A DNA stretch of 64,000 nt, from assembly GCF_000518245.1 (NCBI RefSeq), contig NZ_KI912403.1, forward strand, positions 382,600 to 446,599, read 5' to 3'. The stretch is from Brachyspira alvinipulli ATCC 51933. GTDB taxonomy: Bacteria > Spirochaetota > Brachyspiria > Brachyspirales > Brachyspiraceae. Below are positions 1,815 to 61,709 of this stretch, in pieces (the first letter of the stretch is position 1; each line of letters begins with the position of its first letter). A program made the position numbers and the translations under genes. Under the pieces are notes generated by a model. It worked only from the letters and a program-made list of their open reading frames with translations. It was not told where the DNA came from and made no database searches.

Positions 1815-2618
1815 ATGGCAAAAATAAGCGAAGCTGCTAAAGCAGAATGTACAAGGATGCAAAATAAATATAAAGATTTGCTTGCTGGTACTGAAGAGCT
1901 TTTAGCAAAAGTTGAAAAAGATTTATTATCTATAGAAGATCCGTTTGAAGCATCAAGAAAAAAAATCGATGCTGCCATACTTTATATTAGAGCATCTTCT
2001 TTTATTGCAACAATATGCTATATTGCTATAGAATACATAGAAGTACGTTCTGATAATCAATTAAATGATGGTAGAAGATATATTAATAAAGCAATAATGC
2101 TGTTAGAAGAAGTATTCGGCAATCATACAGATGACTCTTTATCTTTAAATGAAGAAATACATGAATATTTAAAAGATAAATTAACAGATGAATGGAGATA
2201 TAAATTTATTTGTTCATTTGGATATGTTATAGATTATTTCAAATACTGCTATGGAGAAAACTCGAAATGGCTTCAAAACTTTATTGAAATAGAAGGCAGA
2301 TTTGCAATACTAGCAAAAAATATGATAGATTTCAAAAATTACATAAAAGAATTGAGTCCTGAATTAGAAGGATATAAATTCAGAGTAAAAATGATGGAGC
2401 TTGTAAAAACTTTATTAGCTGCCGCTGCTGAACAATACAGAATTAAATACGAATTACAGGATAAAAGATTAGATGATATAAAAATAGCATTAAATATCAT
2501 TGCTTCCCTTAGAAGAATACATGTTTATTTAAATGAAGTAGAAGAATCTGAAGAGAAGAAGAAAATGTATGACCTTTGGAAGAAAAAAATGGATGCCGAT
2601 ATAAAGAAAATGAAATAA
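1815..2618 (+). CDS. conserved-looking hypothetical helical protein
   Basis: I do not recognise a family. The start is the ATG at 1815, because GGGGAGAG at 1799-1806 is a good ribosome site eight bases upstream; a TTG at 1797 in the same frame is unsupported. The 267-residue product has no signal peptide or membrane segment. It is predicted almost entirely helical, with charged Glu/Lys-rich heptad-like stretches and a lysine-rich C-terminus. It lies 38 bases after the kinase on the same strand, so it may be co-transcribed, and it converges with recR with one base between the stop codons. Function unknown; a cytosolic scaffold or partner of the kinase is only a guess. Confidence 0.75.
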   Translation: MAKISEAAKAECTRMQNKYKDLLAGTEELLAKVEKDLLSIEDPFEASRKKIDAAILYIRASSFIATICYIAIEYIEVRSDNQLNDGRRYINKAIMLLEEVFGNHTDDSLSLNEEIHEYLKDKLTDEWRYKFICSFGYVIDYFKYCYGENSKWLQNFIEIEGRFAILAKNMIDFKNYIKELSPELEGYKFRVKMMELVKTLLAAAAEQYRIKYELQDKRLDDIKIALNIIASLRRIHVYLNEVEESEEKKKMYDLWKKKMDADIKKMK

Positions 2619-2619
2619 A

Positions 2620-3225
2620 TTAATCCATTTCTACTCTATCTATTATACTTCTGGCCAAAGACCTTGAATCAGCATTTTCTATGTCGCTGGATAAAGAAAT
2701 TCCATAAGTAATACGTGTAATTTTACCATTAAAATTATTATCTTTTAAAACCTTATGTATATATGATGCTGTTGTATCAGCTTCTAACGAGGCACTAAAT
2801 GCTATCATTATTTCATCAATTATATTGTTATTAATACGTTCTATAAGTTCTTTTATTCTTATATCACTTATACCAATACCTTTAAGAGGTGCTATAAGAC
2901 CTCCTAATACATGATAAACACCATTATATTCCTCTGTTTTTTCTATAGCAAGCATATCCGGATAATTTTCAACAATGCATATTTTTCTATGATCTCTATT
3001 TTCATTTGCACAAATATAACATATATCTTCTTCGCTCAAGCTATAACATTGAGTACATAATTTTATATTATCATGCAATGTTAATAAAGTATTAGCAAAC
3101 TCTTTTAAATACTCTTCATCGCAATCAAACAGATATAATGCAAGACGCATAGCCGTTCTTCCGCCTATACCTGGAAGCCTTGATATTATTTGATTGAGTT
3201 TATCCAAAGATGGAATATTATTCAA
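2620..3225 (-). CDS. recR: recombination mediator RecR
   Basis: RecR acts with RecO/RecF to load RecA on gapped DNA. The 201-residue length is normal. In order: an N-terminal helix-hairpin-helix (LPGIGGRTAMRLAL, 17-30), a four-cysteine zinc finger (Cys57, 60, 69, 72), a Toprim domain from about residue 81 (ICIVEN...) and the C-terminal Walker-B-like stretch around ISLSSDIENADSRSLARSI. In the last element the usual GGD is SSD, a mild divergence. The start is TTG, preceded by AAGGAT. It follows ybaB on the minus strand with a three-base gap, the classic ybaB-recR pairing, here without dnaX in view. Confidence 0.95.
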   Translation of the reverse strand: MNNIPSLDKLNQIISRLPGIGGRTAMRLALYLFDCDEEYLKEFANTLLTLHDNIKLCTQCYSLSEEDICYICANENRDHRKICIVENYPDMLAIEKTEEYNGVYHVLGGLIAPLKGIGISDIRIKELIERINNNIIDEIMIAFSASLEADTTASYIHKVLKDNNFNGKITRITYGISLSSDIENADSRSLARSIIDRVEMD

Positions 3226-7764: not shown

Positions 7765-7792
7765 TTGTATTATTTATTTAATAATATATAAT
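7765..7792 (+). promoter_or_regulatory. predicted promoter of the repeat-containing leader ORF
   Basis: TTGTAT (7765-7770), 16-base spacer, TATAAT (7787-7792). The expected transcription start falls at about 7798-7800, on or next to the ATG at 7799, so the leader ORF could be translated as a leaderless message. Confidence 0.4.
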
Positions 7793-7798
7793 GTAAAA

Positions 7799-7900
7799 AT
7801 GAATATTCAATATATTTGTACTAATCTAGGTTTGAATCTACAAGCCAAGCCAAGCCAAGCCAAGCCAAGCCAAGCCAAGCCAAGCCAACTAATACAATAA
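7799..7900 (+). CDS. short leader ORF encoding an AKPSQ pentapeptide repeat
   Basis: A 33-codon ORF starts at ATG 7799 and runs through the CAAGC tandem repeat, which encodes AKPSQ three times, ending at TAA 7898-7900, 25 bases before a terminator hairpin. It has no Shine-Dalgarno, but a promoter -10 seven bases upstream would make it leaderless. With the present nine repeat units the frame closes before the hairpin. With a unit count leaving remainder 2 on division by 3 (8 or 11) the frame stays open through the hairpin and the FkbM ribosome site and ends at TAA 7987-7989, just past the ATG at 7979. I infer a frame-dependent leader rather than a functional peptide. Confidence 0.35.
   Translation: MNIQYICTNLGLNLQAKPSQAKPSQAKPSQLIQ
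7841..7888. repeat. pentanucleotide tandem repeat (CAAGC)9
   Basis: Nine perfect copies of CAAGC (7841-7885) plus a partial CAA. The tract is far richer in G+C than its surroundings and sits between the HxlR regulator and the FkbM methyltransferase gene. Because five is not a multiple of three, each unit gained or lost shifts the frame of the ORF that crosses it. Confidence 0.95.
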
Positions 7901-7925
7901 TCTTTATTTTTAAAAATTACATAAA

Positions 7926-7951
7926 CCTAACAATCAATGTTAGGGTTTTTT
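7926..7951 (+). terminator. intrinsic terminator ahead of the FkbM gene
   Basis: Seven-bp stem CCTAACA / TGTTAGG with a five-base loop, followed by G and six T. It separates the repeat-bearing leader from the FkbM ribosome site (AGGAGG at 7969-7974) and could act as an attenuator for that gene. Confidence 0.7.
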
Positions 7952-7978
7952 ATTTAAAAAATTGTTATAGGAGGAATT

Positions 7979-8047
7979 ATGGATATTAAAACTATTAATA
8001 ATTTTTTATGGTGGGTTCCATTTAAAGAAATAAGAAAATATTTATAA
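7979..8047 (+). pseudogene. 5' end of the FkbM gene cut off by an in-frame TAA
   Basis: ATG 7979 has the strongest ribosome site of this locus (AGGAGG four bases upstream) but only 22 codons (MDIKTINNFLWWVPFKEIRK, then YL) before TAA at 8045-8047. It is in the same frame as the following FkbM reading frame, and the eight codons between the TAA and the TTG at 8072 contain no other stop. From memory, a short WW-x-P-x-K segment often opens surface-glycan enzymes of Brachyspira. I therefore read this as the true N-terminus separated from its body by one nonsense codon. Alternatives: an independent leader peptide, or a sequencing error. Confidence 0.5.
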
Positions 8048-8071
8048 AATGCCGTTGGGGAAAATATTTCT

Positions 8072-8737
8072 TTGAATAGGAATTATTCATTTTTAAAAAA
8101 AATTATAGAAAAAAACAATAATATAAAATTTAAAAGTCAATTTGATCAAGATCTTTTAGCATATTCATATTTTAATGGTAAAAGAAATGATTTTTTTGTA
8201 GATATAGGTGCTCATAATGGAGAATGGATAAATAATACTTATATTTTTGAACAATTAGGTTGGAATGGTATTTGTGTGGAAGCAGATCCTGATAATTTTG
8301 AACTGTTAAAGAAAAATAGGAAATGCTATACATATAATTTTGCAATTGATAGTGAAAATTCTGATAATATAAAATTTATCAAATCTAAAGTGGATGCTTT
8401 AAATGTTTTAGAGAAACATTGTTCAGAAGAACATGCTAAAAGAATAAAATCTGAAGCCAAAATAGATAATTTAGAATATGTGAATATTAAATCTATTACT
8501 TTTAATGATTTAATGAAAAAGTATCATAGTGAAATAAAGCATATAGATTTTTTATCTATTGATATTGAAGGCGGAGAACTAGATATATTAAAAACTATAG
8601 ATTTTTACACTTATACTTTTGATCTTTTAACTATTGAAAATAATGAAAAAGAAAATGTATTAATTGATTTTATGAAAACGAAAGGATATAAAGTATTAAT
8701 CGATATAGGTTGTGATATATTATTTGTAAAAGAATAA
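8072..8737 (+). CDS. FkbM-family SAM-dependent methyltransferase
   Basis: Methyltransferase of the FkbM type, which O-methylates sugars or polyketides; in host-associated bacteria usually a surface-glycan enzyme. From the TTG at 8072 (221 residues): substrate/SAM entry segment QFDQDLLAYSYF, motif I FVDIGAHNGEW (42-52), acidic motif II GICVEADPDNFELL, and the FkbM signature IDFLSIDIEGGELDIL near residue 165. The TTG has only a poor, distant GGGG upstream. The frame is continuous with a 22-codon segment at 7979 apart from one TAA, so the gene may be broken or reinitiated. Upstream lie a CAAGC repeat and an attenuator-like hairpin. Family call is secure, expression state uncertain. Confidence 0.85.
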   Translation: MNRNYSFLKKIIEKNNNIKFKSQFDQDLLAYSYFNGKRNDFFVDIGAHNGEWINNTYIFEQLGWNGICVEADPDNFELLKKNRKCYTYNFAIDSENSDNIKFIKSKVDALNVLEKHCSEEHAKRIKSEAKIDNLEYVNIKSITFNDLMKKYHSEIKHIDFLSIDIEGGELDILKTIDFYTYTFDLLTIENNEKENVLIDFMKTKGYKVLIDIGCDILFVKE

Positions 8738-23608: not shown

Positions 23609-24571
23609 TTATAAATCAGTTAAAACCTGATTTATCCAAAAATTAACCTCTTGAGCATTATAAGTCTTTATACGATTAAAAACGTCTAATGCATTCTTTT
23701 TTCTTCTCAAATTCTTATAGCACTTACCAAGAAGCAAATTAATATTATAATATAATGTTCTGCTTACATTCACTTTTGACACAGGTTCCAAAATTGATGC
23801 TGCTGATAAATAATTACCTGCTTTAAATTGTATTACTGCTCTGTCATATTCATTCTTATATTTGCTAACTAAACTAGAATTATTATTATATGTATTACTG
23901 CTTTTAATAACTCCAGAAGTATTATTAACAACATTTGTAGTAGTTATTATATATGTATTTGTTATGTTATACACATTTGTAGTTACCAAAACATTAGTAT
24001 ATTCATAAATTATAGTATTGGTATTATCGATTTTATATTGATTATTAGTAATAGCATCATCAATTTTATACTGACTATTATTAGTAGTATTATCAATTTT
24101 ATATTGATTATTATTAGTATTTACTACTCCATTAAATATTATGGATAATGTATCAACTTTAGGTTTTGAATTATAAAAACTTACATTATCTATATATGAA
24201 ACTACAGCATAATAATAATTAGATGATAATACTGGTCTGTCAACTACAGCATATTTTCTAGAAGTGTTTGTAGCTTTAACATAATCAACCACTTTAGAAT
24301 TTACTAAGGAATATTTACCAATTATAGGACTTTCACTTCTATATACATAATAAATTAAATTGCTGTTATTTATTCCATCCCATTCTATTAAAATTTCACT
24401 ATCATTAGTTGTAGATACTGTAATGTCTATATTATTTACAAATTTTTCAGCACTAGGCAAATTATTAGATGTTTGTGTATATAAAATATTTATAGATAAA
24501 TAAAAAATTATTATACTTACAAAGGCAAATAATATGTATATGCTTTTTTTGTTTTTTATTAATTTATTCAT
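23609..24571 (-). CDS. exported FN3-like protein with Asn-rich repeats and helical tail
   Basis: A 320-residue protein anchored by a helix at residues 10-31. A fibronectin type III-like domain covers about 45-145 (ILIEWDGINNS, YYVYRSESPI, YYYAVVSYIDN). A low-complexity linker (150-230) is rich in Asn/Thr and holds three NQYKIDN-type repeats and repeated TTNV units. The C-terminal 85 residues are TPR-like helices (EYDRAVIQFKAGNYLSAASI, LLLGKCYKNLRRKKNALDVF). It is likely surface-exposed or periplasmic and partners the TPR protein that follows it in the operon. No function recognised. Confidence 0.75.
   Translation of the reverse strand: MNKLIKNKKSIYILFAFVSIIIFYLSINILYTQTSNNLPSAEKFVNNIDITVSTTNDSEILIEWDGINNSNLIYYVYRSESPIIGKYSLVNSKVVDYVKATNTSRKYAVVDRPVLSSNYYYAVVSYIDNVSFYNSKPKVDTLSIIFNGVVNTNNNQYKIDNTTNNSQYKIDDAITNNQYKIDNTNTIIYEYTNVLVTTNVYNITNTYIITTTNVVNNTSGVIKSSNTYNNNSSLVSKYKNEYDRAVIQFKAGNYLSAASILEPVSKVNVSRTLYYNINLLLGKCYKNLRRKKNALDVFNRIKTYNAQEVNFWINQVLTDL
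24020..24115 (-). repeat. in-frame Asn-rich coding repeat
   Basis: Three imperfect copies of a unit encoding NNxQYKIDN (residues about 153-184 of the FN3-like protein). Unit length is a multiple of three, so copy changes would vary linker length without a frameshift. Confidence 0.7.
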
Positions 24572-35573: not shown

Positions 35574-36851
35574 ATGAAAAAAAATAATAAATCCAAAAGA
35601 TCTAAATTAAATAAACAAAAAAGAATAAGACATTATAAAAAAAATAAAAACAATATCAATAATAAAGGATTTATAAATGATGATAATATACAAAAGGCTA
35701 AAGATTTTGCTGGTGAAAATATAGAAAAAGCTAAAGATTTTGCCAATGAAAATATAGAAAAGGCTAAAGATGCAGCAATAAAAAGTTTTGAAAAAGCTAA
35801 AGATTTTACATCAGATAATATAGATAAATTCCAAAAATATTTAGATGAAAAAGATGTTAAAGGAAAAATTAAAAATATAGCTGATACCGGAATAAATACA
35901 ATAAAAGAACATTCAAAAAGAAAATATCCAACTAGAGTCTTAAAATTCTTTCATAGATATTATATGCTTACTTTTATAATATTATTTGTATTATCAATGC
36001 TTATATTCAGAAACATATATTTAAATCATAATATGGAAATAGAAAGAAGATTAAATTATTCTATAACAAATTATTCACCTTCCCTTGAAAATATAATTAT
36101 AGCTAAAGAAGATTATTATACCAATATGTTAATAAGACAAATATCAAGTAATAAAACAGCAACCAATCATATAATATTAAAAAGCTCAAATATTGAAAAT
36201 TTAGAATCTGCATTAAAAAATGTATTTGACAATTACAATAGAAATTTAGAACTGTCAATGAATGAAACTATTAAGTCGTCAAATAATGTAATAAATTTCT
36301 GGTTTGCTTTTTTGACTGTTATAATGATAGTTTTTACTTTAATAAGTATAGTTATAAATAATAATATATTAAAAAAATCAAAACTAAAAATGAAGAAATT
36401 TAATACTTTATATAAAAAACAATTAAAAGTATTAAAGAAAGAAATAAGAAATTTTGAAAATTTAAAAAATAAAAATGAAGAGATAAATAATTTTTATAAT
36501 TTAGGAAATATAGCATTTGATAATAATGAGTATGATGCAGCTATATCCTACTATGATAAAGTTATAGAATTAAGCGGAAATTTTTTTAATGCTTACTATA
36601 ACAGAGCAATATCCTATTATCATACAAATAACTATCAAAAATCTTCTGAAGAATTAATAAAACTATATAGAAATAACAGTATTATAAAAACAAAAACAAT
36701 CAAAGAAATTATAATAAAAAATATTATAGAATTAGCAAATAAAAATATAGAAACAGCCGTAAAATTCTGTAATGATGAAAATATAGATTATAAGTCTTTA
36801 GAAAATGATAAGCAGTCATTATTTAGTAGAATAAAAAATATATTAGGATAA
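35574..36851 (+). CDS. membrane protein with amphipathic KAKDFA repeats and TPR tail
   Basis: A 425-residue protein with no recognised family. The N-terminal 30 residues are very basic. Residues about 38-105 hold several 11-residue amphipathic repeats of the form ENIEKAKDFAN, resembling LEA/apolipoprotein-like helices that lie on membranes. Helix one is at about 128-148; a loop domain follows; helix two is at about 240-262; then a coiled coil (270-305) and TPR units (FYNLGNIAFDNNEYDAAISY, YNRAISYYHTNNYQKSSEEL). The loop would be periplasmic and both ends cytosolic. Ribosome site AAGGG before ATG 35574. Function unknown. Confidence 0.75.
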   Translation: MKKNNKSKRSKLNKQKRIRHYKKNKNNINNKGFINDDNIQKAKDFAGENIEKAKDFANENIEKAKDAAIKSFEKAKDFTSDNIDKFQKYLDEKDVKGKIKNIADTGINTIKEHSKRKYPTRVLKFFHRYYMLTFIILFVLSMLIFRNIYLNHNMEIERRLNYSITNYSPSLENIIIAKEDYYTNMLIRQISSNKTATNHIILKSSNIENLESALKNVFDNYNRNLELSMNETIKSSNNVINFWFAFLTVIMIVFTLISIVINNNILKKSKLKMKKFNTLYKKQLKVLKKEIRNFENLKNKNEEINNFYNLGNIAFDNNEYDAAISYYDKVIELSGNFFNAYYNRAISYYHTNNYQKSSEELIKLYRNNSIIKTKTIKEIIIKNIIELANKNIETAVKFCNDENIDYKSLENDKQSLFSRIKNILG

Positions 36852-60161: not shown

Positions 60162-61574
60162 TTAAAATCTGAAATATATAAATGGATTGTAAGTACCATT
60201 AACTAAATACATAATGCAAATGAATAACAGTACGAATTGAATAACACTCTCTAATATATAAACTCTGCTTGAAAATATAGCTTCCTTAAGCTTTGGAAAT
60301 ATGCTCTGTAATAAACCGCAAAATAAAATACCGAATACAAAACAAACTTGTGTCTGAGGATAGAAGAAATATCTAACTGTAAAAATGCTCTCTTGATAAT
60401 TAAACATTACTTTATATAATTCTAAAGCATGTTTCAAATCATTAGCTCTAAATAATACCCAGCCTAATATAAATACTAATATCACATATATATGATTAAT
60501 AAATTTTAATTTATTTCTCTCTAACAGCTTACCTAAAAATATACGCTCTATTATTAAAAATAATCCATGCCACAAGCCCCACAATATAAAATTAAAACTA
60601 GCTCCATGCCATAAACCTGTAGCAAAAAATACAATAAATAAATTTAAATAAGTAAAATATTTACCTTTCCTATTTCCGCCTAATGGTATATATAAATACT
60701 CCTTAAACCAAGTAGATAAGGATATATGCCATCTCCTCCAAAACTCCTGTACTGACTTTGATATATAAGGATAATTAAAATTCTCTAAAAACTTGAATCC
60801 GAACATATGACCTAATCCAATAGCCATATCTGAATAACCTGAAAAATCATAATATATCTGAAGTGTATACAATATAGCAGCAAGCCATACTAAAACTGTA
60901 CTTAATTCACTAACTGGTTGTTTTAATATTTCATCGCAGGATAAGGCAAACATATTCGCTAATATTACCTTTTTAGATAGTCCGTAAATGAATCTTTTTA
61001 TTCCATAGCTGATATTTTCTAAACTTTCATTTCTATTAATTATCTGACTTTCTATATCATGGTACTTTACTATAGGTCCTGCTATCAATTGAGGAAAAAA
61101 CGATATATATAAAGCTAAATTAAATACATTCTTCTGTGCTTTATTTTGCTCTCTGTAAACATCTATTACATAAGATAATGCCTGAAATGTATAAAAAGAT
61201 ATACCTATAGGAAGAACTATATTTTTTAGACTTATTACTTCTTTGCCTGATATTGAATTAATTATTGATATAGCAAAATCTGTATATTTAAAATAACCTA
61301 ATATAACTAAATTAAGGATTATACAAAAAATTAAATATACTTTCTTCTTTCTTTTATTATTATCTTCAATAGCTTTATCAATTAATAATGCAAATACATA
61401 ATTGATGAGAATAGAAGAAAACATTATTAAAGTATAACTAACTCCACCCCAAGCATAAAAGATAATACTTGCTGCTAAAAGAAGAACATTTCTATATTCT
61501 TTTTTAATTAAATAATATAAACAAAATACTACAGGAAGAAAAAGCCATAAGAAAATCATGGAACTAAATAACAT
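60162..61574 (-). CDS. MBOAT-family O-acyltransferase (AlgI-like)
   Basis: A 470-residue, about 11-helix protein of the AlgI/DltB branch, which passes acyl groups across the inner membrane. Landmarks: start MLFSSMIFLWLFLPVVFCLY, GISFYTFQALSYVIDVYRE, SLSTWFKEYLYIPLGGNRKG with the conserved lysine loop, and GLWHGASFNFILWGLWHG containing the catalytic histidine. GGAG is eight bases before ATG 61574. A (GCGGT)10 repeat and a short upstream ORF with its own ribosome site lie between its promoter and its start. Forms an operon with the AlgJ-like gene. Confidence 0.93.
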   Translation of the reverse strand: MLFSSMIFLWLFLPVVFCLYYLIKKEYRNVLLLAASIIFYAWGGVSYTLIMFSSILINYVFALLIDKAIEDNNKRKKKVYLIFCIILNLVILGYFKYTDFAISIINSISGKEVISLKNIVLPIGISFYTFQALSYVIDVYREQNKAQKNVFNLALYISFFPQLIAGPIVKYHDIESQIINRNESLENISYGIKRFIYGLSKKVILANMFALSCDEILKQPVSELSTVLVWLAAILYTLQIYYDFSGYSDMAIGLGHMFGFKFLENFNYPYISKSVQEFWRRWHISLSTWFKEYLYIPLGGNRKGKYFTYLNLFIVFFATGLWHGASFNFILWGLWHGLFLIIERIFLGKLLERNKLKFINHIYVILVFILGWVLFRANDLKHALELYKVMFNYQESIFTVRYFFYPQTQVCFVFGILFCGLLQSIFPKLKEAIFSSRVYILESVIQFVLLFICIMYLVNGTYNPFIYFRF

Positions 61575-61637: not shown

Positions 61638-61709
61638 CTACATAATTTGTGCGGTGCGGTGCGGTGCGGTGCGGTGCGGTGCGGTGCGGTGCGGTGCGGT
61701 TACCGGCAT
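61638..61709 (-). CDS. short leader ORF through the GCGGT repeat
   Basis: A 23-codon ORF begins at ATG 61709 with GGAG nine bases upstream and reads MPV then TAPHR-type repeats encoded by the pentamer tract, ending at TAG (61640-61638), 63 bases before the MBOAT start. The other two frames after the repeat are open past the MBOAT ATG, ending at TAG 61566-61564 or slightly further on at TGA. So copy-number changes decide whether the leader ORF stops short or overlaps the MBOAT start. Inferred as a frame-switching leader; peptide function not expected. Confidence 0.4.
   Translation of the reverse strand: MPVTAPHRTAPHRTAPHRTAQIM
61651..61700. repeat. pentanucleotide tandem repeat (GCGGT)10
   Basis: Ten perfect copies of GCGGT (ACCGC on the MBOAT sense strand), about 80% G+C in an A+T-rich setting. 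It lies between the predicted MBOAT promoter and start codon, wholly inside a short ORF. Like the CAAGC tract at 7841, each unit change shifts frame. Confidence 0.97.

Follow-up and report, generated by a model that had tools for sequence, protein, structure and literature searches.

A pentamer repeat in a short leader ORF as a putative phase-variable switch of an FkbM-type gene, and related leaders before surface genes of Brachyspira

The DNA analysed here, referred to as the window, is a stretch of 64,000 nucleotides from Brachyspira alvinipulli ATCC 51933 (contig NZ_KI912403.1, positions 382,600 to 446,599). On its forward strand, an FkbM-type gene is preceded by a short leader ORF containing nine exact CAAGC units (7841-7885). 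A promoter was predicted at 7765-7792 (TTGTAT at 7765-7770, a spacer of 16 and TATAAT at 7787-7792), and the leader begins at ATG 7799-7801, comprising 33 codons in its present frame (7799-7900). The -10 box is present as originally predicted, with six bases between it and the ATG; given this spacing and the missing Shine-Dalgarno sequence, the leader is probably leaderless. The array contains no stop codon in any of the three frames and encodes QAKPS repeats. It is followed by a stretch (7886-7989) that holds a terminator-like hairpin with a T run (7926-7951; stem 7926-7944, T run to 7951), the AGGAGG Shine-Dalgarno sequence of the FkbM-type gene (7969-7974) and the ATG of that gene at 7979.

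The frame in which this stretch is read depends on the number of units, n. When n is a multiple of three, as at present, the leader stops at 7898-7900, upstream of the hairpin, and when n leaves a remainder of 1 it stops at 7892. With a remainder of 2, the leader stays open across the hairpin, the T run, the AGGAGG and the FkbM ATG and terminates at TAA 7987-7989. The nine units, the leader start, the present stop upstream of the hairpin and the open frame at remainder 2 had all been predicted previously, and our recomputation of the frames agreed with them. The repeat lies far beyond chance (100 shuffles of the window gave an expectation of 0 for three consecutive CAAGC units), whereas the frame argument at this single locus does not: a comparable open frame was obtained in 0.51 of shuffles and was also present in 19 of 33 real upstream regions of control genes. 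Because the open frame at the FkbM locus is unremarkable when taken alone, the case for a switch rests on the related loci described below. The hairpin is weak (-6.5 kcal/mol); shuffling the same stretch 200 times produced a similar one in 0.5% of cases, and the fold of the whole hairpin-bearing stretch was no better than that of 23 of 200 shuffles. A structural role or antiterminator function of the array RNA was rejected and no antiterminator is proposed, because the leader folds no better than its shuffles (z -0.47). No matches to Rfam at gathering score were found in the whole window.

Another leader built in this way was identified on the reverse strand at 61638-61709. It starts at ATG 61709-61707, contains (CGCAC)10 at 61649-61698, is closed in its present frame and precedes an MBOAT O-acyltransferase gene (60162-61574, reverse strand). 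This leader is conserved across the genus, where its arrays have 7 to 21 units, and, unlike the leader at the FkbM locus, the MBOAT leaders carry a Shine-Dalgarno sequence. Also in the window, at 24021-24119 and 35680-35824, are tandem repeats of greater length, 33 and 66 bases, which are probably located inside coding regions.

We propose, with a probability of about three in four, that the repeat count of the leader gates the FkbM-type gene as a phase-variable switch acting in cis. The short and probably leaderless ORF would be translated through a pentamer array in which slippage adds or removes units and, since three does not divide five evenly, each unit change would shift the ribosomes into another frame downstream of the array. 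Two frames would end within 15 bases past the array, while the third (n = 2 mod 3 at this locus) would extend as far as the FkbM start codon. With the leader open, ribosomes would keep the terminator hairpin from forming, allowing transcription to continue, and they would finish beside the FkbM Shine-Dalgarno sequence and start codon, favouring re-initiation. Promoter use, leader translation, termination, coupling and switching in cells are here deduced from the DNA sequence. With nine units, the locus is predicted to be OFF.

The FkbM methyltransferase named as target in the original prediction is present as a domain, but the gene is interrupted in the source genome. Its start (7979-8047) extends for 22 codons to an in-frame stop at 8045-8047, and the PF05050 (FkbM) match (E 6e-19) lies in the part downstream of this stop, in the remaining frame at 8048-8737, where a restart at TTG 8072 is possible. 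Because of the stop at codon 23 the switch may drive nothing intact in this genome, and it may at present control a damaged gene. Intact orthologues are found in two other Brachyspira genomes, G018 (L097, on the same contig as L016) and G004 (L086). In Brachyspira sp. G79, the region upstream of the FkbM orthologue consists of N (L015, about 2300-3100), so its leader is not comparable. The comparison of copy number across genomes suggested by the original prediction gave 9 units in the source genome (G000), 15 in G018, where the leader is open through the hairpin, and 2 in G004, where it is closed; this is a comparison between species. Some observations run contrary to the switch plan: the two units of the G004 orthologue are too few to slip readily, the G014 leader (L095) is cut short by a stop codon ahead of the array, and L084 has lost both leader and promoter. 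These broken or short relatives, together with the closed present frame and the stop at codon 23, are what would be expected if a switch that formerly worked at the FkbM locus were now decaying behind a broken gene, its copy number being without effect today. We regard such a remnant as a real possibility with odds of roughly one to two. Against it speak the intact state of the nine perfect units, of hairpin and promoter and of the remaining FkbM frame, and the possible restart at TTG 8072.

A difference in copy number with a change of frame was observed within one genome. G006 contains two duplicated leaders in which 246 bases before and 183 bases after the array are identical, and which differ only in having 11 and 10 units. 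The frame is thereby flipped, and the model assigns OFF to the 11-unit and ON to the 10-unit leader; an assembly error is a possible source of the difference. Over the arrays of our first set, the model gave 20 ON, 19 OFF and 2 undecided, single states being uncertain because the start codon was picked by rule.

Arrays of this kind are widespread in the genus. The CAAGC pattern was found as five units in 11 of 26 Brachyspira genomes and as six units in 10 of 26, the six-unit pattern occurring in 0 of the 270 other genomes of the phylum sample, and other pentamers were GTGCG (13/26), GACAA (14/26) and AAGTC (7/26). The source genome contains two CAAGC arrays, one GTGCG array (in the window, at 61649) and four AAGTC arrays, the last of which (L169, L170 and L171) are located in leaders before surface-type genes elsewhere in the genome. 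In many Brachyspira genomes, arrays of these four unit types stand in front of genes of the glycan, acyltransferase and lipoprotein classes. Pfam searches with ten downstream proteins identified one FkbM methyltransferase, two glycosyltransferases of family 8 and two of family 11, one radical SAM protein, one MBOAT O-acyltransferase and one zinc-ribbon fragment; two had no family, one of which belongs to a large lipoprotein-like family whose search also returned relatives without arrays. The array sets comprise the arrays retrieved rather than all those of the genus, most contig-end matches of the CAAGC, GTGCG, GACAA and AAGTC searches being left out; L107, L108, L118 and L126 are contig-end arrays with little or no downstream sequence.

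Every one of the 41 arrays of the first set has a frame that either passes the downstream ATG or stays open until no more than 40 bases before it, and one or two other frames stop 3-36 bases after the array. Hairpins with T runs are less general. They are present at the window locus and its relatives L086, L095 and L097, where one frame is open through the same hairpin in the G018, G004 and G014 relatives, and, with other sequences, in the leaders L014, L079, L080, L087 (four), L093 and L112, with a poor one in L114. For L095, the first frame scan had taken a downstream ATG inside the hairpin, and the orthologue hairpin scan used a later start. In each hairpin-bearing leader one or more frames run through the 5' arm of the hairpin, and in L093 the open frame terminates within a strong hairpin. 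At most arrays, including the leaders of MKKNFINK-type lipoproteins and of MBOAT genes, our scan over all loci recognized no hairpin, yet the open frames of these arrays likewise end near the downstream start codon. Translational coupling is therefore probably the general principle, and termination was dropped as such. We infer that ribosome delivery to the start codon is common to the leaders, with termination added at glycan genes. Coupling might even act alone, the leader frame deciding only whether ribosomes are delivered to the start codon and the hairpin being minor at the FkbM locus as well. The 41 open frames, most of them at arrays without a hairpin by our scan, would suit this, but at glycan genes (the window, L087, L093, L080 and L079) a hairpin and T run of differing sequence is repeatedly found in the same position, and we consider it rather unlikely.

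Direction provided the clearest control. The comparison was restricted to arrays of 4 or more units that are followed, within 330 bases, by an ORF of 100 aa or longer. A frame stays open as far as the downstream start for 55 of 56 of these in the sense direction versus 1 of 24 in the antisense direction, toward the gene on the other side; for distances of at least 100 bases the counts were 26 of 27 and 1 of 24, and Fisher values for this asymmetry overstate the independence of the loci because these partly share ancestry. The count omits the FkbM array of the window (22 codons), L085, L088 and L123, all four of which are among the 41 arrays of the first set. A test set of AAGTC and GACAA arrays, one of each having been seen earlier, gave open frames for 20 of 21 arrays in sense and 0 of 7 in antisense, L184 being the sole sense array without one; in L186, L187 and L188 the open frame exceeds 300 bases. 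A -10-like hexamer 4-10 bases before the ATG of the open leader was present in 47 of 64 arrays (overlapping loci cause a few to be counted twice) versus 151 of 1055 ATGs of the window, and in 34 of the 47 it lies at 6 or 7 bases. A box so near the open leader ATGs points to mostly leaderless leader transcripts in the genus. In the aligned frames behind the arrays, gap runs are mostly multiples of three: 9 of 11 in the MBOAT set, and 3, 69, 3, 36 and 27, plus 68 paired with a 1, in the lipoprotein set; those in the window set are 2 and 13 and lie near the gene start. The pentamer arrays are abundant in the genus and the frame statistics of the single locus are weak, as would also hold for neutral microsatellites that expand by chance between genes with meaningless open frames; the sense/antisense asymmetry, the placement of the arrays directly behind a -10 box and ATG and the mostly frame-keeping indels make such an origin very improbable. 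The same asymmetry and indels, together with the frame open through the hairpin in the orthologues and the duplicated pair, lend comparative support to that part of the original prediction in which copy number sets the leader frame and one frame crosses to the gene start, while the terminator as a common element was not upheld, most arrays having no recognizable hairpin.

For the genus as a whole, we lean, on somewhat better than even odds, towards heritable frame switches that share one design. In it, a mini-ORF, mostly leaderless, would carry a pentamer array free of stops and built from any of several different units, and no more than one or two frames would extend to the start codon of a surface gene, ribosome delivery to the start codon being the gate and terminators an add-on at glycan genes, so that many repeat counts would set the cell coat. 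That the same kind of switch recurs ahead of numerous surface genes in related species suggests random on/off control on a wide scale.

In classical repeat phase variation, e.g., in Haemophilus and Neisseria, repeats with a unit that is not a multiple of three slip inside the coding regions of surface glycan genes. In Brachyspira, in contrast, the repeat is located in a separate leader ORF, would act in cis and does not contribute to the gene product. In-frame fusion of array and gene is seen at some related loci (L116 and L094), but at the FkbM locus a fusion was excluded by frame at every repeat number, no phase joining the repeat to the gene product, and leader and FkbM gene as one ORF can practically be dismissed. 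In transcription attenuation of the trp type, the position of the ribosome on a leader ORF controls a terminator; here, the signal would instead be a heritable repeat number, and no alternative antiterminator fold was recognized.

The closest likeness is to the pil1 and pil3 loci of Streptococcus gallolyticus, for which experiments have shown leader-peptide attenuation with GCAGA repeats (Danne et al. 2014, PMC3894217). There, the short leader stops upstream of the terminator, other frames reach or pass it, and changes in unit number alter the frame; the leader has a ribosome binding site, and the terminator lies about 130 bp before pilA (PMC3894217). Both systems have a pentamer array in a leader ORF with a surface structure or gene downstream. 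At the FkbM locus, the repeat unit is not a multiple of three and lies wholly within the leader, and the hairpin and T run at 7926-7951 stand between leader and gene, as they do not, by scan, at most related arrays. Furthermore, at this locus and its relatives one repeat class stops before the hairpin and another runs into or past it. A leader ribosome binding site is absent at the FkbM locus and present in MBOAT leaders. The Brachyspira leaders would appear to work like the S. gallolyticus system; given the missing ribosome binding site, we do not claim full membership. Compared with the two pilus loci, the Brachyspira system, as deduced here from sequence, is in another phylum, uses several units at many loci, ends its open frame at the gene start codon and mostly has no recognized terminator. 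Searches of the open-access literature turned up no study of repeat-driven phase variation in Brachyspira, and repeat-in-leader attenuation for S. gallolyticus only. What would be new is the occurrence in another phylum, the genus-wide use, the leaderless starts, the frame ending at the gene start codon (translational coupling) and the mostly missing recognizable terminator.

If the proposal is correct, gut spirochaetes, including animal pathogens, carry a large and predictable set of surface switches, with a bearing on typing, surface antigens and phage sensitivity, and two distant phyla have each come to place such a repeat in a leader instead of the gene itself. As the state of a locus can be read from its sequence, the model gives a yes/no prediction for each array.

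Other repeats were also seen. In L093 (2698-2727), L182 (1334) and L183 (1808), the GACAA array is preceded, at a distance of approximately 200 bases, by a second pentamer array of the AGACC or CAGAC type. This second array lies at the 3' end of the preceding gene or close to it and might perhaps switch a protein tail. Another Brachyspira genome contains a 24-copy heptamer array (CTGATTT) between genes (L137, 521-688). L131 and L148, two lipoprotein leaders with the same leader start, contain no array; an A8/A9 run distinguishes them, and this run might itself act as a frame switch.
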